DNA from: a virus
Virus record (IMG/VR): IMGVR_UViG_3300021792_000025
Coordinates: 1 to 21,166 of that record
Reading direction: 5' to 3' (one strand)
Length of the DNA: 21,166 nt
Position 1 is the stretch's first letter, and each line of letters starts with the position of its first letter. Below the pieces are notes generated by a model. That model did not search any database. It saw only the letters and a program-made list of their open reading frames with translations, and was not told the DNA's origin. This document shows, in pieces, positions 3,465 through 16,246 of the stretch. A program made the position numbers and the translations under genes.

Positions 3465-3499
3465 TAAAAAAGGCAGAAAAATTAAAGTAATTTTTCTGC
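3465..3499 (-). terminator. Strong intrinsic terminator overlapping the end of the 249-aa gene
   Basis: On the minus strand, a perfect 12-bp stem (GCAGAAAAATTA against TAATTTTTCTGC, arms 3488-3499 and 3473-3484) with a 3-base CTT loop is followed by CCTTTTTTAT. The 5' arm is coding sequence (Ala-Glu-Lys-Leu) and the stop codon TAA begins the 3' arm. Confidence 0.9.
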
Positions 3500-4231
3500 T
3501 AATACATCTGATTCTTGTTTTTCATTCATTGTATTATTAATATTACCATCAATTAATTTTTCAAGTAAATCAACTTTACTTTCATTATGTTCAAACATTT
3601 CAACTGATTCTTTAATTCCATTTTCATTTGATTCATTTAAACTTTCAATAATTTTATTTTTCATTTTTTCTTCAATTTCAGGAATTAAATCTTCAGTTAA
3701 AATATAAATATTTTCACCATTTTCAATTGCTTTTTCTAATAATTTGAAGTTTTCTTTTCCAATTGCTTCTGCAATTTTTTCATCTAATTTTTCAATAAAT
3801 TCTTCTTCAATTGTTTCTATTTCAGATTCTCCTATTACATATATTTTTTCATTATTTTCAATTGCACTTTCAAGTTTTCTAAAATTTTCTTTTCCAATTG
3901 CTTCTTTTAATTTTTCTTCAACTTCTTCTAATAATTCATCTTCTGCAATTTTAACTTCTTTATCTGTTAAAATATAAACATTTTCATCATTTTCAATTGC
4001 ACTTTCCAAAATTTCAAAATTTTCTTCACCTAATTTTTCTCTAAATTTATTTTCTATTTCTTCAATTAATTTTTCTTTTTCAGATTCAATAATATTTTTT
4101 AATTCTGATTCTGTTAAAACTACATTTTCAGATAAAATCGTTTCATACGCTTCTAAAAACGCTTGTTTTTTAATTTCTTTAATATCAACTGATTCTGTTA
4201 ATTTTTTTTGTTTTCTTAAATCTTTAATCAT
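3482..4231 (-). CDS. Acidic repeat protein, putative internal head / second scaffold protein
   Basis: The product is 249 aa, very rich in Glu and Lys. It contains three tandem repeats of about 45 residues (about 67-110, 111-155, 156-195), each with GxENFxxLExAIEN, then (N/K)(V/I)Y(I/V)(L/I)(T/G), then a charged helix. Residues 28-66 (ETILSENVVLTESEL...) look like a degenerate fourth copy. Residues 108-111 (LKE|A) and 153-156 (IAE|A) at repeat joints match the L/I-x-E cleavage preference of T4 gp21 proteases. The last six residues, LAEKLL, are identical to the last six of the protease-scaffold protein. No membrane or signal segment is seen. Its place in the head cluster and its shared tail suggest a scaffold or internal core protein processed by the prohead protease. 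That role is inference; no family is recognised. Confidence 0.7.
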   Translation of the reverse strand: MIKDLRKQKKLTESVDIKEIKKQAFLEAYETILSENVVLTESELKNIIESEKEKLIEEIENKFREKLGEENFEILESAIENDENVYILTDKEVKIAEDELLEEVEEKLKEAIGKENFRKLESAIENNEKIYVIGESEIETIEEEFIEKLDEKIAEAIGKENFKLLEKAIENGENIYILTEDLIPEIEEKMKNKIIESLNESNENGIKESVEMFEHNESKVDLLEKLIDGNINNTMNEKQESDVLAEKLL

Positions 4232-4786
4232 TTATTGTCCTTTCACTATAATTTTATCATCATAAATATCAACTTCAAAGTTTTCAAGATCATTTTCAAT
4301 TGATTTGAAAAAATCAACCAATTCATCTGAATAAGGTAATTCAATTTCATTATCACTAATAATAAATATTTCAATATTTGGAAATTCATTATCTAATAAT
4401 TGTGCTAAATCATCAATTGTAACAATTGAATCTACAGGAGTATCGCCTAAATCATCAATTGAACCATCTGCTCCTTCATTTAATCCATCAATAAATAAAT
4501 CTTTAATTAATAATTGATATTTATCTTTAACAATTAATTTATCTAAAGGATAATACGGACTTAAAAGTATTTGTAATTTTCTTGCATCATATAATTTTGA
4601 ATTAATTAATGTTCCTTCATCTGAAATTACAATATCATCTTGTTTTACACCAAATGTTTTTAAAACATCAATAATTTGAGGAATTACATCATCAGATTCT
4701 TTAAAAATTATTAATCCATTTATTGTTTCTTTGTATTTTAAATTTGATTTTTCTAAAATTTTTTTAATATCATTTAAATTAATCAT
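4232..4786 (-). CDS. Unknown acidic protein in the head gene cluster
   Basis: The product is 184 aa, starting MINLNDIKKILEKSNLKY. A longer reading to 4852 is open but would begin inside the preceding gene with a poly-Lys N-terminus. The ATG at 4786 has a typical AAAGGATAAAA site, so I use it; the start overlaps the previous stop by 8 bases. The sequence reads as alternating short helices and strands (GLIIFKES, QDDIVISDEG, IEIFIISDNEIEL, FEVDIYDDKIIVKGQ), and its C-terminal half is strongly acidic. No Cys, signal or membrane segment is present. The ribosome site of the next gene (AAAGGACAAT) lies in its last codons. I recognise no family; a head-associated structural or core protein is the likeliest role from context. 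Confidence 0.7.
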   Translation of the reverse strand: MINLNDIKKILEKSNLKYKETINGLIIFKESDDVIPQIIDVLKTFGVKQDDIVISDEGTLINSKLYDARKLQILLSPYYPLDKLIVKDKYQLLIKDLFIDGLNEGADGSIDDLGDTPVDSIVTIDDLAQLLDNEFPNIEIFIISDNEIELPYSDELVDFFKSIENDLENFEVDIYDDKIIVKGQ

Positions 4787-5123
4787 TTTTATCCTTTTTT
4801 GAATTTCTTCTTGTTCTTTTTTGTTTAACTTTTTCTTTAGTTTTTTCCTCAACTTTTTCTTCTTTTACTTCTTCAGTTTCAACTTTTTCTTCTTTTACTT
4901 CTTCAGTTTCAACTTTTTCTTCTTTTACTTCAATTTCAACTTTTTCAGATTCTTTAGATTTTTTAGATTCATTTATTTTTTCAATTATTAAAACTGAAGG
5001 TTTTCTTAAAATAAAAGATTCTTCAATTAAAACATATTCACCAGGTTTTACTGATACTGATGTATAATCTTTTTTCAAAAAAACAGCAATTGTATTTGAT
5101 ACATTTTTTAACTTAATAACCAT
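4779..5123 (-). CDS. Small protein: N-terminal beta domain plus repetitive Lys/Glu tail
   Basis: The product is 114 aa. Residues 1-52 look like a compact beta domain (VIKLKNVSNTIAVFL, VSVKPGEYVLIEE), a pattern common in small phage head or tail surface proteins. Residues 53-114 are a low-complexity charged tail with tandem KEEKVETEEV units and a strongly basic end (KQKRTRRNSKK). The repeat is exact at DNA level (see the repeat entry). The start has AAAGGATATTAAA. It is the first phage gene after the inserted endonuclease and so probably originally followed the capsid gene; a capsid decoration or vertex-associated protein is plausible but unproven. Confidence 0.7.
   Translation of the reverse strand: MVIKLKNVSNTIAVFLKKDYTSVSVKPGEYVLIEESFILRKPSVLIIEKINESKKSKESEKVEIEVKEEKVETEEVKEEKVETEEVKEEKVEEKTKEKVKQKRTRRNSKKDKND
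4851..4941. repeat. 30-bp tandem repeat, about 2.7 copies, inside the 114-aa gene
   Basis: Units begin at 4851, 4881 and 4911. The first two are identical over 30 bases and the third matches for 21. The period is a multiple of three and encodes the 10-residue unit KEEKVETEEV, so copy number can change without a frameshift. Confidence 0.95.
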
Positions 5124-5141
5124 TTTAATATCCTTTTTAAA

Positions 5142-6854
5142 TTATTTAAAAATATAATTTTTATAATATTTAAAATTTCCAACATCATAAATAATTCTAT
5201 ATCCATTATTAAAAATATTTTCTTTTGCTGATAAATTTTCATTATAAATATTTAAAATATTTTTTAATTTATGTTTTTGAAATTTTATTCTATGATATAA
5301 ATTTAATTCATCATTAAATACATAAAAATTTGGCTCAATTATTTTTTCTAATTTCATAAATTTTTGATAAACATTATTTTTATATACCCATCTTCTATTA
5401 CCAAATGAAATTAATTTTTTAATATTTAATTTTTTAATATAATTATTTTCAAAATATTTTAAAAATTTTCCAAACAAACCTCTTATAGTTATATATTTTT
5501 TTGAAGCAAATCTTATTAATTCATATTCATCTTTTTTAAATCTACTTTTTCCAAATGTCATTACAGCTAATAATTCATTATTAATAAAAAATCCTAATTT
5601 TATTTTTGATTCTGAGTAACCTTGTAAATGATTTTCTTTTAAAAATTGTCTTGCTATTTTTGTTTCAATTTTTTTTATAATACCATCTCTTGCATTATAT
5701 TTTTTAATTTTTTTTGATTTTAATTTTAATAATATTTTAGATTTCCATATATCTTGTTTTATTTCATCTAACCATTCATTTGAAAAAATATGAAATAAAT
5801 GAATGCCGTTTTGTTCACATAATTCTGTTTTTTCTAAATGATAATTTTTGTCAATATTTTTGAAAAAAGGATGATTTCCTTGTGAATGAAAAAATATTCC
5901 ATCATATTCAATTGCAAAATTAAATTCTGGTATATAAATATCTAATTCTTTATTTGGAATTATTTTTCTTGTATTTGTTAAAATTTCTCCATCATAATGT
6001 TTTTTAATAAATTCTAAAATTTCTTTTTCTTTAGAGTTTTTTAATTTTCCAGAAATATTAAAATCGTGAATAATTTTATACGTATAACTATCTGAAATAT
6101 TAAAATATTCTTTTATCCCTTTAAAATCAATGATTCCATTTTTAATAAAATTTTCTTCTATAAAATTTTTATTAAAATTATTAGAATTTTTTATATGATT
6201 TTTTGTATGGTGATTATTTTTATATTTTTCTAATTGAAAAATTGATTTTACACCATATTTATTTTGTATATTTTCTACAAATAAATTTTTATATTTATTA
6301 TTTTTCATATGATTTTCAAATCCATATTTTTTTAAACAAGTTTTTTTTGCTTTTTCTCTATTATTAAAATTTTCATTTCCATATTTTTTTAAACAAGTTT
6401 GTTTTCTTTTTTCAGATATAATTTTAGATTTTTCAGAAATTTTTTTCCTTCTAATTTGATTTAATTCTTTATTATTTGTAGAACATTTATAAGAACAAAA
6501 TTTAATTTCTTCTTTAAAAGGATTATAAAATTTATTTTCTAAAATATATTTTTCAAATAAATTTTTTCCACAAGTCAAACATTTAGGATCTTCAAAACCT
6601 TTTTTATTCCAAAGGTATTTAATTATTTTTGTTTTAATTGAATCTTCAATAACAAAATTTGAATTTTTAAATCTTAATGTATCAATATTAATTAATTCAT
6701 TAATATATTTATCATCAAAATTATTATTTTTAATTTTTTCTAAACAATATAATTTTTTATGAGTATTATTACAAAATAGTTTATTATCAAATTTTTGAAT
6801 ATATTTTTTATTTTTTATTTCAGAATTACAGTAGAAACAATTTCCATAAGACAT
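5142..6854 (-). CDS. Free-standing homing endonuclease, Vsr-like EDxHD family
   Basis: The product is 570 aa. The N-terminus has zinc-finger-like Cys pairs (C6-x2-C9, C92-x2-C95, C120-x3-C124). Residues 150-205 carry three KYG modules (TCLKKYGNENF, TCLKKYGFENH, NKYGVKSIFQ) of the kind seen as DNA-binding repeats in phage homing enzymes. Residues 302-323 hold the nuclease core: KELDIYIP, then IEYDGIFFH with E316, D318 and H323, followed by YHLEKTELCEQNGIHLFHIFSNEW. This matches the Vsr-fold EDxHD group typified by I-Bth0305I. Residues about 400-490 (ARQFLKENHLQGY, LLAVMTFGKSRF, SFGNRRW) resemble the GNAT-like C-terminal domain often found in such proteins. Both neighbours are intact, so it sits between genes rather than in an intron. 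It has its own promoter and is even poorer in G+C than the capsid gene. Family assignment is from remembered motifs; the target site is unknown. Confidence 0.85.
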   Translation of the reverse strand: MSYGNCFYCNSEIKNKKYIQKFDNKLFCNNTHKKLYCLEKIKNNNFDDKYINELINIDTLRFKNSNFVIEDSIKTKIIKYLWNKKGFEDPKCLTCGKNLFEKYILENKFYNPFKEEIKFCSYKCSTNNKELNQIRRKKISEKSKIISEKRKQTCLKKYGNENFNNREKAKKTCLKKYGFENHMKNNKYKNLFVENIQNKYGVKSIFQLEKYKNNHHTKNHIKNSNNFNKNFIEENFIKNGIIDFKGIKEYFNISDSYTYKIIHDFNISGKLKNSKEKEILEFIKKHYDGEILTNTRKIIPNKELDIYIPEFNFAIEYDGIFFHSQGNHPFFKNIDKNYHLEKTELCEQNGIHLFHIFSNEWLDEIKQDIWKSKILLKLKSKKIKKYNARDGIIKKIETKIARQFLKENHLQGYSESKIKLGFFINNELLAVMTFGKSRFKKDEYELIRFASKKYITIRGLFGKFLKYFENNYIKKLNIKKLISFGNRRWVYKNNVYQKFMKLEKIIEPNFYVFNDELNLYHRIKFQKHKLKNILNIYNENLSAKENIFNNGYRIIYDVGNFKYYKNYIFK

Positions 6855-6868
6855 ATTAGTTCCTTCTT

Positions 6869-6910
6869 TACAATATTTTCAAAATTATATCAAATTTAAA
6901 AAATATTGTA
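6869..6910. promoter_or_regulatory. 11-bp perfect inverted repeat around the endonuclease promoter
   Basis: Arms TACAATATTTT and AAAATATTGTA (6900-6910 and 6869-6879 as read on the minus strand) are perfect complements separated by 20 bases. The -10 box lies in the spacer and the end of the -35 box lies in one arm, so this could be an operator. It could also fold as an mRNA hairpin near the ribosome site. No regulator is identified. Confidence 0.45.
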
Positions 6911-6912
6911 AA
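6884..6912 (-). promoter_or_regulatory. Sigma70-type promoter for the homing endonuclease gene
   Basis: TTTACA (6907-6912), a 17-base spacer, then TATAAT (6884-6889) with an extended -10 TGA directly upstream. It lies just downstream of the capsid gene terminator and 30 bases before the endonuclease ATG, so the endonuclease is expressed as its own unit. A host-like promoter implies expression by unmodified host RNA polymerase. Confidence 0.75.
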
Positions 6913-6962
6913 AAAGGAAAAAAGAAAAACAAGAATTAAGCGTTAAGTACTTTAATTCTTGT
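6911..6962 (-). terminator. Strong intrinsic terminator of the major capsid gene
   Basis: The minus strand carries an 11-bp perfect stem (ACAAGAATTAA against TTAATTCTTGT, arms 6952-6962 and 6929-6939) with a 12-base loop, followed by TTTTCTTTTTTCCTTTTT. The stop codon is in the 3' arm and the 5' arm encodes Thr-Arg-Ile near the end of the capsid protein. It ends the very highly expressed capsid transcript. Confidence 0.9.
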
Positions 6963-8336
6963 TGCAAGTGTAGGAACAACTGCTTTACTTCCTGCCATTG
7001 CAGCAGCTGCTTTTTGTGCATTAAGTGGATTATGATCCATTCCGTGGAAAGTATCTGTAACGAATAACGGCATATATGGTGCATATACCACAGCTGCAGT
7101 GAATGGATCTTCACCTTTACTTACTACAATCATTTCATCAGCAGGTAATACAATACTTCTAATTACAGGTCTTCCATCAAGTGTTCCATAAAAATGTGTA
7201 CCTAAAGTTGCTTTAACATCTTGTGCTGGCACAAATCCAGGTAATGCTCTTAATAATCCAGCAACGCTTGTTCCAACTATATATACAATATCTCCACCAA
7301 TTCTACCTGCTTGTTCTAAAATTTTATTTTCAGCTTCTGCAAGTGTTGCAGTAAAGCTTAATAAATGTTCCATATATCCTACACCACTTGGTGCTTGTCT
7401 ATCCCAAGTTAATGCACCTGGTGTTGCTAAATATAATTTTTTAACTACATCAGTTGAAATATTAGTTGTTAATTCATTTACTAAATCTTGAGCTAAAACT
7501 TCTTCAGGATTAATATTAAATCTTTTTTGCATTTCATATGATTTGAATAATCCAATTTCAGTTCTTAATGCAAATGTTCTTGCTACAATTTCAGTACTGT
7601 CAAATTGAGTTTGAATTGTTTGAAGTTCTGTTAAACTTTCAAGATTTGTTGCATATGTTGCATTAACAGTTGCACCATCTCCTGGAGCAGTATCAAAACT
7701 TACAGTTACTTCACCTGTTTGATAATTAATAGTACCTTTTCCACCTACACCAATTAAATTACCTTGTCCGTCATCAATTAATTTTGTAGCAGGTTGATCA
7801 CTAACAGTAATTGTAACAGTTCTTAATCTTACTGGTGGATATTTTACTACAAATGTAAAATCTGTTGCTTTTCCATCTCCAGATGCTTCAACTTCATTTT
7901 CAACTATTTCACCAGCGTATCCTTCTGGAAGTCCAACTCTTCCGTGTGTTGCACTTAATAATGTTTGTCCTGCTTGAATATTACCTCTTGTGTTTGTTGC
8001 TACTACATTTTTAAACCAAACAAGACCTTTTCTTTCATTAATAGGTTGAACTGATGCAAACAATGGAATAACACTTGAAGCATTTGCAGCAGTAATAACA
8101 TCTAATGCAATTTTAGGTAATACACCTAAATCATCAGCACTACCATTTGCTTCTTTGAAAGATTTCCAATTTTCAAATTGTTCTAATTGAGCACCAAGAA
8201 CAGCTAAATCCCATTCATCAACTCTTTTTTTAGCTTTTGCTAATGCAGATTTTTTTTCAAATACATCAAAATATTTTTTATATTTTTTTTCATAAGTTCC
8301 AAGTTTTTCCATTACAGCTTCTTTACCAAATGCCAT
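6936..8336 (-). CDS. Major capsid protein, T4 gp23-like, with inserted beta domain
   Basis: The product is 466 aa. Residues 1-62 form a charged, helical N-terminal segment; after it, VITAANASSVIPLFASVQPIN aligns by pattern with the start of mature T4 gp23 (…IAGVQPM…). A cut after E62 (FKE|A) would parallel gp23 removal of 65 residues. Residues about 150-230 are an extra beta-sandwich-like domain (GDGKATDFTFVVKYPPV, KGTINYQTGEVTVSFDTAPGDGATVNATY), a module seen in several phage structural proteins. The rest (RTEIGLFKSYEMQKRFNINPEE, GGDIVYIVGTSVAGLLRALPGF, GRPVIRSIVLPADEMIVV) fits the HK97-type P and A domains. It is the least A+T-biased gene here and is rich in Ala and Gly, as expected of a highly expressed capsid gene. 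The start has AAAAGGATTAAA. The family call is from motif memory; the cleavage site is inferred. Confidence 0.9.
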   Translation of the reverse strand: MAFGKEAVMEKLGTYEKKYKKYFDVFEKKSALAKAKKRVDEWDLAVLGAQLEQFENWKSFKEANGSADDLGVLPKIALDVITAANASSVIPLFASVQPINERKGLVWFKNVVATNTRGNIQAGQTLLSATHGRVGLPEGYAGEIVENEVEASGDGKATDFTFVVKYPPVRLRTVTITVSDQPATKLIDDGQGNLIGVGGKGTINYQTGEVTVSFDTAPGDGATVNATYATNLESLTELQTIQTQFDSTEIVARTFALRTEIGLFKSYEMQKRFNINPEEVLAQDLVNELTTNISTDVVKKLYLATPGALTWDRQAPSGVGYMEHLLSFTATLAEAENKILEQAGRIGGDIVYIVGTSVAGLLRALPGFVPAQDVKATLGTHFYGTLDGRPVIRSIVLPADEMIVVSKGEDPFTAAVVYAPYMPLFVTDTFHGMDHNPLNAQKAAAAMAGSKAVVPTLATRIKVLNA

Positions 8337-8494
8337 TTTAATCCTTTTTAATTTTTTTTTTTTAATTATTTAAAATTATTTAATTTTTTTACCTTGATAT
8401 TTTACAAATTTTTATTAATATCGGAAATGTGTCCGATTTTAATACTTAAATATTTTAATTATTTAAAATACTTAAATATTAAAATCAGCGGAAA
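8337..8494 (-). promoter_or_regulatory. 158-bp capsid gene leader with repeats and hairpins
   Basis: The gap between the protease-scaffold and capsid genes contains, in reading order, the scaffold-end hairpin, a 14-base direct repeat AATACTTAAATATT on the plus strand (8441-8454 and 8467-8480), an 8-bp AT inverted repeat between the copies (8451-8470), a GC-containing 6-bp hairpin (8420-8437), and an A-rich leader with a 12-A run and AAAAGGAT. I find no good TTGACA/TATAAT pair. A phage-specific late promoter or a processing site is possible; the direct repeats are the best candidates for factor binding. Confidence 0.45.
8420..8437. other. GC-bearing 6-bp hairpin in the capsid gene leader
   Basis: ATCGGA (8420-8425) and TCCGAT (8432-8437) pair perfectly around a 6-base loop. 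In DNA this A+T-rich, three G:C pairs in each short arm stand out. No T tract follows on the minus strand, so it is not a terminator there. It could be an operator, an RNase processing site or an mRNA-stabilising stem. Confidence 0.5.
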
Positions 8495-8513
8495 TTAAAG
8501 TAATTTTTCCGCT
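8487..8513 (-). terminator. Hairpin at the end of the protease-scaffold gene (probable partial terminator)
   Basis: On the minus strand AGCGGAAA (8506-8513) pairs with TTTCCGCT (8487-8494), with TTA/TAA able to extend the stem above a 2-base bulge and the CTT loop. Only GATTTTAATATTT follows, so termination may be incomplete and some portal-operon transcripts could read into the capsid gene. The stop codon lies within the hairpin. Confidence 0.6.
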
Positions 8514-10471
8514 AAAATTATTTCTTTTTCTTTTTCAACTATTTCAAATGAATTTTCTACAATATAATTATTTTGTAAATTTTGCATTTCTTTTTCTTCT
8601 AAAATTTGTTTTGCTTTTTCTATATTATAATTATTTAAAATATTTTTTACAGTTGATTCATCAATATTTTTATATAAAGTTTTCAAATATAAAATTTGAT
8701 AATTTTTTAATTCTTCTTGTAAATTTTTAATTTCATTTTCCAATTTTTCATTTATTGAATTATTTATTTTTTCTGATATTTGTTTTAATTCATTATTTTT
8801 ATTATTTAATTTTTCTTCAATAATATTTATATTATTTTGTAATTTTTTATTTTCATTTTCTAATAAATTTATTTTTTTAATTAATTTATTTTTTTCTTTT
8901 TCATATAAATTATTAATTTTATTTAATTCTTTTTCTTTTAATTTTAATTTTTCTTCAATATTTTCAATTTTATAATTTGTTAATTCTTCATATTTTTTTG
9001 ATATTTCTTTTTCAAGATTTTCTGCAATTTCTTTTCTTACACTTTCAATTATCTTAATTTTTTCATTTTCAACTTTCGTTTCAAAGTTTTCTTTTAAAAT
9101 TTGATATTCTTTTTCAATATTATTTAATTTTTTTTCTAATATTTTTTTATTTTCTTTCTCAGTATTTAAATCTTCTTGTAAATTTTGAATTTTATTTTTA
9201 AAAGTTTTTATTTTTAAATTTAATTGTTCTATAATAATATTTTTATTATTTAATTCTTTTTTTAATTTTTTAAAATCTTCAGCAATAAAATTATATTTTT
9301 TAATTTTATTTTCACTTTCAATTAATTTATTTGATAAATCTTTAATTATATCTTTATAATCATTTATTAAATTTTCATTTTCTTTTTGAGTTAAAAAATC
9401 ATTTAATTCTTTTCCAAAATTATAAATTTTTTCTTCTTTTGATTTTTCTTTATATTGTTCTAATAATTTATCAATTATTTCAATAATTTTATTTGTATAA
9501 ATTGATTCTATTTCATTTAATTTATTTTTTAATTTTTTTAAATTTTCTTCATTTATTTCATCATCATCTAAAAATTCAATTATTTCTTTAACAATATCAT
9601 CTCTACTTTTTAATACTGATATTTTTTTAAGATAATTTTCAATTTCAGCAATTAATAATTCTTTTAAATCATTTGTATCAATATTATTTATTAATTTTTG
9701 TTCTAATGATTTATTTTCGTCTTTTAAATTTTTAATTATTTTTTCATATTTTTTAATTTTTTCATCATATTGTTTTTTTATATTTTCATATAATTCCACT
9801 TCTTCAATGATTGTGCAAATACCATCTTCGCATAATGTTATTTTACTTTCTTTAAGTTTTTCAATATCTTTTTTATTTTCTTTTTCAAGTTTTTCTACTA
9901 ATGATACATCAACTGAAGCAATACCAGGTTTAATAACAAAATCAATACTTTCTAATTTAAAATTTTTAGGATTAATTACTTGATATTTTCTTCCATCAAT
10001 TTCTTTGTATTCATTTACAAATTCTCCAAATGCTCTTGTTGAAACTTTTAATTTTGAACCTGCTTTTAATACAGTATATAAAATTCTTCCAGCAGGAGTA
10101 TCTAAAATTTCATAAGTTGCATATCCAAATCCATCATTTCCAATTCTGATATCAGTTACAATATGTGAAACTTTACCTTCTGCTAATAAATCATCTAAAG
10201 TATAATTTTCAGGATGTCCAATACAACCAAACATTAATTTATCATTTAACATTTGTATTACTTCAGGATCTTTTAAAGCATTTTCCCATAATTCTTTTGG
10301 ATAATATCTTCCATTCCTACTTACACCATTAAGAACAAATGATTTCCCTTCAACTATTCCTAATATTGAACTTTTATCAGAAGGTTTATAAGATTCATTT
10401 ACATTTTTATATTCTTCAACCGTATAAAAATTTTTAGGTTGAAAATTAAATTCATCAATAAATTTTAACAT
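8495..10471 (-). CDS. Prohead protease fused to a long coiled-coil scaffold-like domain
   Basis: The product is 658 aa from the ATG at 10471, which has AAAAGGATAAAA; an ATG 21 bases further upstream lacks a ribosome site. Residues 35-195 are a T4 gp21/S21-type serine protease: ILGIVEGKSFVLNGVSRNGR, a catalytic His in CIGHPENY (H86), a catalytic Ser in KVSTRAFGEF (S144), then KLESIDFVIKPGIASVDVS. These residue numbers are close to H85/S140 of T4 gp21. From about 195 to 645 the protein is continuous Lys/Glu/Asn/Leu heptad-like coiled coil, as in phage scaffolds, ending LAEKLL. T4 encodes protease (gp21) and scaffold (gp22) separately. There is no Met between about residue 85 and 630, so no ATG-initiated separate scaffold exists. 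Presumably it builds the core and then digests itself and the capsid N-termini. Protease identity is strong; the scaffold role is inferred. Confidence 0.85.
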   Translation of the reverse strand: MLKFIDEFNFQPKNFYTVEEYKNVNESYKPSDKSSILGIVEGKSFVLNGVSRNGRYYPKELWENALKDPEVIQMLNDKLMFGCIGHPENYTLDDLLAEGKVSHIVTDIRIGNDGFGYATYEILDTPAGRILYTVLKAGSKLKVSTRAFGEFVNEYKEIDGRKYQVINPKNFKLESIDFVIKPGIASVDVSLVEKLEKENKKDIEKLKESKITLCEDGICTIIEEVELYENIKKQYDEKIKKYEKIIKNLKDENKSLEQKLINNIDTNDLKELLIAEIENYLKKISVLKSRDDIVKEIIEFLDDDEINEENLKKLKNKLNEIESIYTNKIIEIIDKLLEQYKEKSKEEKIYNFGKELNDFLTQKENENLINDYKDIIKDLSNKLIESENKIKKYNFIAEDFKKLKKELNNKNIIIEQLNLKIKTFKNKIQNLQEDLNTEKENKKILEKKLNNIEKEYQILKENFETKVENEKIKIIESVRKEIAENLEKEISKKYEELTNYKIENIEEKLKLKEKELNKINNLYEKEKNKLIKKINLLENENKKLQNNINIIEEKLNNKNNELKQISEKINNSINEKLENEIKNLQEELKNYQILYLKTLYKNIDESTVKNILNNYNIEKAKQILEEKEMQNLQNNYIVENSFEIVEKEKEIILAEKLL

Positions 10472-10481
10472 TTTTATCCTT

Positions 10482-10946
10482 TTAATAATCATTGAAATAA
10501 TTTAATATTTCAATTAACATTATTTTATAATTATTTAATAAATTAGGATTAAATATTAAATTTTTAAAATCATTTAATAATTTATTATAATTATTTAAAA
10601 AATAATTTGTTATATTTAAAAATTCTTTTAATTGTTTTCTATTTGATTCATAATATTCTAATTCTATAAAAATATGAGTTAAAATTGATGATAAAGTTTT
10701 ATATATAAAAATTATATCTGAATAATTAAATTCATTTTTATCAAGTATTTCCAATGATTTTTTAATTTTTTCTTTAAATTTTTTTCTATTTGTTGAATTA
10801 TTCCATTTTTCTCTTGCTTCATCAAATTCAAAAATATTATTAATATTTGAAAAGGGATTTAACAGTTTTATTTTTCTTATATAGTCTTCTTCTGATAAAT
10901 TTAATAAATCCCATTCAAATTTATCATCTTTATTTTTAAATTTCAT
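10482..10946 (-). CDS. Unknown helical protein between portal and protease
   Basis: The product is 154 aa, almost wholly alpha-helical and rich in Asn, Leu, Lys and Ile, with no Cys, signal or clear membrane span. It starts MKFKNKDDKFEWDLLNL and ends LIEILNYFNDY. The start follows GAGGATTAATA made from the last codons of the portal gene, and its stop lies 10 bases before the protease start, so it is translated as part of the packaging/prohead operon. T4 has small core genes (67, 68) between portal gene 20 and protease gene 21. This gene is at the equivalent place and could be a prohead core protein, but I see no sequence proof. Confidence 0.65.
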   Translation of the reverse strand: MKFKNKDDKFEWDLLNLSEEDYIRKIKLLNPFSNINNIFEFDEAREKWNNSTNRKKFKEKIKKSLEILDKNEFNYSDIIFIYKTLSSILTHIFIELEYYESNRKQLKEFLNITNYFLNNYNKLLNDFKNLIFNPNLLNNYKIMLIEILNYFNDY

Positions 10947-15282: not shown

Positions 15283-15918
15283 TTATAAAAACATTTCTTC
15301 TGTTACATCAATTATTGTATCATCTCCTATTTTTTTATCAGTTTGTTCTATTGTTCTTTCATTATTTGCAACTTTCTTAATATCAGCCATTCCCTGTTCT
15401 AATAAATCATTTAAAAATTCTTCAGTTGTATTATCTACATTAATTTCATTTTCTATCATTTTTTCTGCATATTCTTGATTTAATTTTTTACTTGTTGTAA
15501 TATTAATATTATCTTTTGTTACTGGAACTACAATTGCTTTTGTATAAATATGACCAAAATCATCATTATTAGATTGTAAATCTGCAACTTTATATAATTG
15601 TTCACCTGCAGGCATTTTAAAAATAATTAATGAATTAATCGGTACTTCAGTTAAATCATCAAAATATATTGCTTTTTCATCTCCATTTAGTTCGTCATAA
15701 AATCCACCAAAATGTTGTTTTGAACCTGCAAATACAAAAGGAGCTAAAAATTTACCAGTCCAATCAGGAGTTTCATTATAAATAATTTCGTCATCATATC
15801 CACCTCTTCCTGATTTAAATCCTTTAGGATAATACATTTCTCCATCAATACCAAATAAATTTGATAATACTTTTACAGATGTTCTGCCTGCAATTCTTAA
15901 TACGGGACTAAATAACAT
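15283..15918 (-). CDS. Beta-rich structural protein of unknown role
   Basis: The product is 211 aa. It starts MLFSPVLRIAGRTSVKVLSN and continues FGIDGEMYYPKGF with a Gly-rich loop (GRGGYDDE), then WTGKFLAPFVFAGSKQHFGG. Residues about 90-135 (DDLTEVPINSLIIFKMPAG, EQLYKVADLQSN, YTKAIVVPVT) read like a small beta barrel of the kind used in head-closure or baseplate adaptors. Residues 140-211 are a charged, helical tail ending DVTEEMFL. The start has AAAGGCAATAA and overlaps the preceding gene by 11 bases. It is the last gene of the tail/adsorption run, before a new promoter. I recognise no family with certainty. Confidence 0.6.
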   Translation of the reverse strand: MLFSPVLRIAGRTSVKVLSNLFGIDGEMYYPKGFKSGRGGYDDEIIYNETPDWTGKFLAPFVFAGSKQHFGGFYDELNGDEKAIYFDDLTEVPINSLIIFKMPAGEQLYKVADLQSNNDDFGHIYTKAIVVPVTKDNINITTSKKLNQEYAEKMIENEINVDNTTEEFLNDLLEQGMADIKKVANNERTIEQTDKKIGDDTIIDVTEEMFL

Positions 15919-16246
15919 TTATTGCCTTTGAAAATATTTTACATTCACAAGGTTTATATTCAATTGTTTCAAAAATAATATTTTGATTAGTTTTTATTTT
16001 ACATTCACAAGGTTTATATTCAATTGTTTCAAAAATAATATTTTGATTAGTTTTTATTTTACATTCACAAGGTTCAAAAAAATTTATTTCAATTTCATTA
16101 TGAAAATTATTTCCAAAAAATGTTAAATTATTATTAAAATAATATTTTTTTGACTCAATATAATGATTATTTGTACATATTTTATTTTGGTATTTTCTTT
16201 TTAATATTGGCTTAAATAATGGATTAGATAAATTTAAACATTTCAT
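15908..16246 (-). CDS. Small protein with Cys-x-Cys tandem repeats
   Basis: The product is 112 aa. Residues 1-57 are basic and Asn/Tyr-rich with one Cys at each end of the first 25 residues (MKCLNLSN, NKICTNN). Residues 58-105 are tandem 20-residue units PCECKI-KTNQNIIFETIEYK, two full and a third cut after PCECKI. Three evenly spaced Cys-Glu-Cys pairs could bind a metal or form disulfide ladders between subunits; neither can be told from sequence. No signal peptide is present. AGGATTTTATA precedes the ATG, the LamG-like gene ends just upstream, and it overlaps the next start by 11 bases. The exact DNA repeat shows a recent expansion. No family is recognised. Confidence 0.65.
   Translation of the reverse strand: MKCLNLSNPLFKPILKRKYQNKICTNNHYIESKKYYFNNNLTFFGNNFHNEIEINFFEPCECKIKTNQNIIFETIEYKPCECKIKTNQNIIFETIEYKPCECKIFSKAINVI
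15935..16074. repeat. Exact 60-bp tandem repeat, 2.3 copies
   Basis: Bases 15941-16000 and 16001-16060 are identical, and 16061-16074 repeats the first 14 bases; the match extends 6 bases to the left. The unit encodes 20 residues including PCECKI, and a multiple of three keeps the frame when copies are gained or lost. Confidence 0.97.

Follow-up and report, generated by a model that had tools for sequence, protein, structure and literature searches.

A short C-terminal motif common to the protease-scaffold and a companion protein of a T4-like phage most likely serves docking during head assembly

Two different proteins encoded in the head-gene block of a T4-like phage, a prohead protease fused to a scaffold and a companion repeat protein, end in the same six residues, LAEKLL. 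We favour, with a probability of about 0.62, the interpretation that this peptide is a short linear docking motif used by both proteins at a common prohead site, most likely on the inner surface of the gp23-type capsid protein. In this view, the six residues most likely serve docking while the head is assembled, and the RNA hairpin found across the stop codons of the two genes is an ordinary add-on. Both proteins are probably used in building the interior of the head.

The head-gene block and its two proteins ending in LAEKLL

The window, that is, the whole stretch of DNA analysed, comprises 21,166 nt of the IMG/VR record IMGVR_UViG_3300021792_000025, with 20% GC and 21 proteins; both the window and its relatives are metagenomic fragments. 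Its minus strand contains a T4-type myovirus head-gene block in the order terminase, portal, a 154-aa protein, the protease-scaffold (665 aa), the gp23-type capsid protein, an inserted endonuclease-like ORF and then proteins of 114, 206, 249, 205 and 274 aa, where the portal and endonuclease labels were given by position and general appearance, without a family match. The major capsid protein (6936..8336, minus strand), our candidate docking partner, was recognized by Pfam Gp23 (3.6e-21).

The endonuclease-like ORF (570 aa, 5142-6854, minus strand) is flanked by the capsid gene and the 114-aa gene and also appears in the related contig L003, and we noticed no counterpart at the same place in the other relatives. 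The capsid-protein gene is split into three pieces in L035 (8870-13723) and into two in L036 (10889-13109), with other sequence between them, which suggests introns or similar insertions; an Rfam search of the window, L035 and L036 retrieved no family at threshold. Elsewhere in the window, a 112-aa protein (15908-16246, minus strand) contains near-identical tandem repeats of ca. 20 residues each (KPCECKIKTNQNIIFETIEY).

The identity of the 665-aa protein (g665; 8495..10492, minus strand) as a prohead protease fused to a coiled-coil scaffold is based on Pfam, PHROG and AlphaFold/Foldseek comparisons. It passes the curated cut-off of Pfam Peptidase_S77, PF03420 (35.2 bits, cut-off 27), its residues 46-629 match PHROG 207, head maturation protease, and its AlphaFold model shows the gp21 fold, with a Foldseek match to the T4 gp21 structure 5jbl_A (E 3.1e-7, TM (target) 0.67). 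The protease domain, matching 5jbl, spans residues 43-190 (9923..10366, minus strand) and is beta-rich, with block pLDDT mostly 70-88, and residues 225-642 (8567..9820, minus strand) form a helical/coiled-coil scaffold region, as deduced from long helices in the model and coiled-coil PDB hits. Residues H93, S151 and D184 are invariant across the 11 family members and are candidates for a catalytic His/Ser/Asp triad. The model ends in a linker (residues 643-659) at low confidence and a short terminal helix (660-664), also at low confidence, and the motif, conserved in the 11 family members, occupies residues 660-665 (8498..8515, minus strand). No relatives of the protease-scaffold were found in the bacterial genomes searched.

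The companion protein (g249, 249 aa; 3482..4231, minus strand) has homologs or positional counterparts in eight related contigs, and synteny together with the common motif make it a probable prohead core protein. From the ORF translation and the alignment of companions, its terminal LAEKLL corresponds to residues 244-249 (3485..3502, minus strand). An internal copy, LLEKLI, which the sequence-only reading of this DNA had not mentioned, lies 22 residues upstream, at residues 222-227 (3551..3568, minus strand), where relatives have LAEKLI, LAEKLL, LAEKLM, LAERLL or LAEALM. The AlphaFold model of g249 was poor (mean pLDDT 44) and was left out of the fold search, and a profile search against PDB and PHROGs gave weak matches only, to repetitive or helical sequence, with no informative family; the companion was also undetectable in annotated phages. 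The two ORFs thus confirm the earlier statement that both proteins end in LAEKLL, and a C-terminal hexamer common to two of the 21 window proteins would be expected only 4e-5 times.

Conservation of the motif in related contigs

From IMG/VR searches we drew related contigs with the head block, some of 93 and 105 kb, and compiled 11 protease-scaffold genes (window included) and nine companion genes, those of L036-L038 being identified partly from position and motif, with a sequence identity of 23-27%. Both families keep the tail pattern L-(A/L/V)-(E/G)-(K/R)-L-(L/I/V/M) with diverging preceding residues: mean pairwise identity is 0.67 in the last six residues vs 0.23 in the 12 before for the protease-scaffolds, and 0.66 vs 0.15 for the companions. 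Nine of the 11 protease-scaffolds end in LAEKLL, LVEKLL, LAEKLV, LAERLI or LAEKLI, and the two most distant (L037/L038) in a degenerate RLSKLV. Likewise, all nine companions have the motif at the C-terminus, as LAEKLL, LAEKLI, LAGRLL, LAGKLI, LAESLI or LLEKLA, and every one contains at least one additional internal copy, usually starting 21-23 residues ahead of the terminal one, with a total of three copies in L010 and L011. A C-terminal degron is disfavoured by these conserved internal copies, which have no free carboxylate.

Searching whole contigs with a degenerate pattern of the tail plus stop codon matched only the two gene kinds, with exactly two ORFs in each of the 93- and 105-kb relatives, and the reversed control gave zero matches; the pattern demands Ala at position 2 and fixed positions 3-4, leaving the LVEKLL, LLEKLA and LAESLI ends uncounted. 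In all, the motif is a C-terminal end common to two proteins, the second of which is a presumed core protein.

Hairpins and codon usage at the gene ends

The observation, made from the sequence alone, that the two genes have nearly the same DNA at their 3' ends holds: the 24-nt pattern AAATTAAAGTAATTTTTCNGCTAA occurs at exactly two window sites, 3479-3502 and 8492-8515, as compared with 0.01 expected from shuffles, and the two ends differ at one base. Nevertheless, under the codon usage of the window, in which TTA, GCA, GAA and AAA dominate, two LAEKLL ends would be identical or one base apart with P = 0.47, so the near-identity is no evidence of copying.

In both genes, a hairpin supported by folding and shuffles spans the stop codon. 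That of g249 (3473..3499, minus strand) has 12 bp, GCAGAAAAATTA-CTT-TAATTTTTCTGC, with -12.0 kcal/mol and a z of -3.3; that of g665 (8485..8515, minus strand) has 10 bp and a loop of 11, AGCGGAAA...TTTCCGCT, with -13.3 kcal/mol, a z of -3.35 and no good U-tract. Of 300 codon-and-UTR shuffles, none equalled one of the hairpins in energy and pairing, and a single one equalled the other. The g249 hairpin is followed by a CTTTTTT tract (3466..3472, minus strand) and, with its GC-containing stem and U-tract, it is the only site resembling an intrinsic terminator at these gene ends; the g665 hairpin was not reported in the terminator scan, which is by itself weak evidence, with three sites in the whole region vs 1.6 expected. 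In Escherichia coli, the translating ribosome represses terminators this near a stop codon (PMC4824070), and the strength of a terminator here is therefore uncertain. Past the g665 hairpin, two more hairpins precede the capsid gene (8400-8485, minus strand), first a long one made of A and U only and then one of the CGGA type, with a z of -7.3 for this whole segment.

The sequence-only reading had proposed a silent change compensated within the stem. Indeed, the last codons do pair past the stop in both genes, and the pair at the Ala wobble position differs between them, being A-U in g249 and G-C in g665; however, the stems are in different registers, because the g665 3' arm is two bases closer to the stop, its TTA-TAA is unpaired and its loop has 11 nt vs 3 nt in g249, and the change is therefore not one substitution in one homologous stem. 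Aligning relatives, the stem covaries among five genes of the window, L003, L007 and L011, picked for their visible stem: three of 12 pairs are changed on both sides, and 91.7% of the cells are paired vs 48-63% in shifted controls. The peptide, however, persists without the stem. L008 and L012 keep the exact LAEKLL, encoded by different codons, with zero coding-to-UTR pairs, L012 having instead a strong ordinary hairpin entirely downstream of the companion stop; the scaffold genes of L010, L036, L037 and L038 have a stem no better than shuffles; and the internal motif copies are not next to a stop codon. These cases indicate that the peptide is maintained as protein, and relatives that have the peptide but lack the stem are among the outcomes that the sequence-only reading had itself named as speaking against its proposal.

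These results bear on two explanations that start from the nucleic acid. Selection of a single element as both RNA stem and peptide, as formerly proposed, would agree with the stability of the stems, with their covariation and with the use in g665 of GCG, a rare codon (3/171 Ala codons in the window) that favours selection on that one stem and is the sole hint of codon-level selection; yet the genes and internal copies that have the peptide without the stem make such a coupling very improbable. Even harder to sustain is the proposal that a 3' terminator cassette was copied from one gene to the other, with the common peptide as a by-product. The 24 nt identical except for one base would be its signature, but codon bias suffices to explain this identity, the similarity ends at the motif, internal copies exist, and relatives use different codons for the same peptide, as in L012 (CTAGCAGAAAAACTTTTG and TTAGCAGAAAAACTTTTA); the copied cassette is hence not needed, and duplication of a cassette is rejected by the codon analysis. 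From these comparisons, we consider the hairpin a real but separable and lineage-limited feature, and read the stems as terminator-like or 3'-end-protecting RNA that, in some members only, reuses the last codons as its 5' arm.

A proposed docking role and comparison with known systems

The idea of a capsid- or core-binding tail, already raised from the sequence alone, gains support from a motif that is conserved in both families despite their deep divergence, repeated in the companion and apparently displayed after a low-confidence linker. The protease-scaffold has the consensus L-A-E-(K/R)-L-(L/I/V/M) once, at its very C-terminus, and the companion has two or three copies in a putatively flexible tail. 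As the prohead assembles, both proteins would dock at one site, for which the inward-facing side of the gp23-type capsid protein is the most likely candidate. The core would be filled by the coiled coil or the repeat body, anchored to the shell through the tails and later destroyed by the protease. We infer the prohead-core location of the two proteins, the capsid protein as partner and the cleavage of the core, the choice of partner following the 80alpha/SaPI1 and herpesvirus precedents; the portal, the protease or the membrane could be the partner instead. Six residues make a short motif, and L037/L038 have it in degenerate form. A six-residue tag on the protease-scaffold and on a second, unrelated core candidate offers a concrete, cheaply testable handle and, if it works in isolation, it could serve as a C-terminal tag to load cargo into such heads.

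Two other explanations, both of which we consider unlikely, concern the peptide itself. Its L-A-E could be a T4-type prohead-protease cleavage site (L/I-x-E) that marks the trimming of both core proteins and not binding, given that T4 gp21 cleaves after L/I-x-E, with processing of the C-termini of gp21 and Alt (PMC9026906), that a T4-type gp21 (L039) ends in ...LAEAMKKAL and that Glu is present in 26 of the 31 motif copies, which are related and non-independent sequences. The cleavage context pointed out earlier is thus possible, but the remaining five copies have G (L007, L010 and L011) or S (L037/L038) in place of Glu, and cleavage would remove only three end residues. Leu at position 5 (31/31) and K/R at position 4 (29/31) are more constant than Glu, and we therefore favour binding over pure cleavage, although both can coexist. 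With a comparably low probability, the motif could make some other assembly contact, be it docking on the portal or the protease, a helix bundle formed by the tails of scaffold and companion, or attachment to the membrane as the prohead is initiated. A short leucine-rich helix, present in multiple copies in the companion, would suit such contacts, and prohead assembly in T4 begins at a portal bound to the membrane (PMC9958956); however, the tails common to scaffold proteins that we found in the literature bind capsid protein (PMC5644958, PMC12474303), and sequence data do not tell the candidate partners apart.

The preferred docking on the capsid protein has its closest parallels in other viruses. 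The scaffold protein SP of phage 80alpha and CpmB of SaPI1 both carry RIIK as a C-terminal motif, through which they bind one and the same capsid-protein cleft (PMC5644958), and, as here, a short basic-hydrophobic motif lies near the C-terminus of two different scaffold proteins. Conversely, RIIK is absent here, where the consensus is LAEKLL, and one of their partners comes from a satellite, whereas both our genes are in one phage, one of them fused to a protease and the companion with two to three copies; LAEKLL may work like RIIK, but it is not a sequence member. The protease-scaffold and scaffold of herpesviruses bind the MCP via a shared C-terminus, which is removed by cleavage at the M site (PMC12474303). 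UL26 and UL26.5 thus resemble our pair in that a protease is fused to a scaffold, at a comparable length (635 vs 665 aa), and the C-terminus of the fusion recurs in another protein, but their common end results from nested in-frame genes, while here the genes are separate, ca. 4.3 kb apart, and have only the motif in common.

Within T4, head-core proteins likewise have a short peptide in common, the capsid targeting sequence of the internal proteins, and its context is that of L/I-x-E cleavage, although this sequence is N-terminal, of ca. 10 aa and removed, and the motif described here is C-terminal and internal, with a Glu that is not essential. Several small head-region ORFs of Vibrio phage 1.031.O (L017 12652-15731) have a common N-terminal motif of the ILxICE kind that is reminiscent of those targeting sequences. 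As for the RNA, the g249 hairpin is like the intrinsic terminators that abut stop codons in its stem and U-tract, and differs in that its 5' arm is within the last codons.

T4-type gp21 and gp22 have the protease fold and short hydrophobic C-termini in common with the proteins described here, for example ...SLAEALTRFAK in phiM7 gp22, but in T4 protease and scaffold are encoded by separate genes and the motif is not identical to ours. By-eye comparison of scaffold and protease C-termini from annotated phages revealed other short hydrophobic-basic ends, such as SLTSRLM (Rhizobium), GLSKKLM (Acinetobacter Ab1-TPeters), RAGKLM (IME392), and SRFGRMV and SRFSRMI (Vibrio), as well as SLAEAL in phiM7 gp22 and LAEAM in a T4-type gp21. 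In Thermus phage phiLo (L019 7857-11967), the protein encoded just ahead of the capsid gene ends in ILDRLGRF and the protease in ILKRIGL, possibly another tail common to core proteins. Tentatively, then, and with the odds against it, the motif could be a general, portable C-terminal address for T4-type prohead cores, multivalent in the companion and degenerate in gp21/gp22 of other T4-like phages (SLAEAL in phiM7, SLTSRLM in Rhizobium, GLSKKLM in Acinetobacter and ILKRIGL/ILDRLG in phiLo); if true, this would account for the attachment of core proteins to the gp23 shell.
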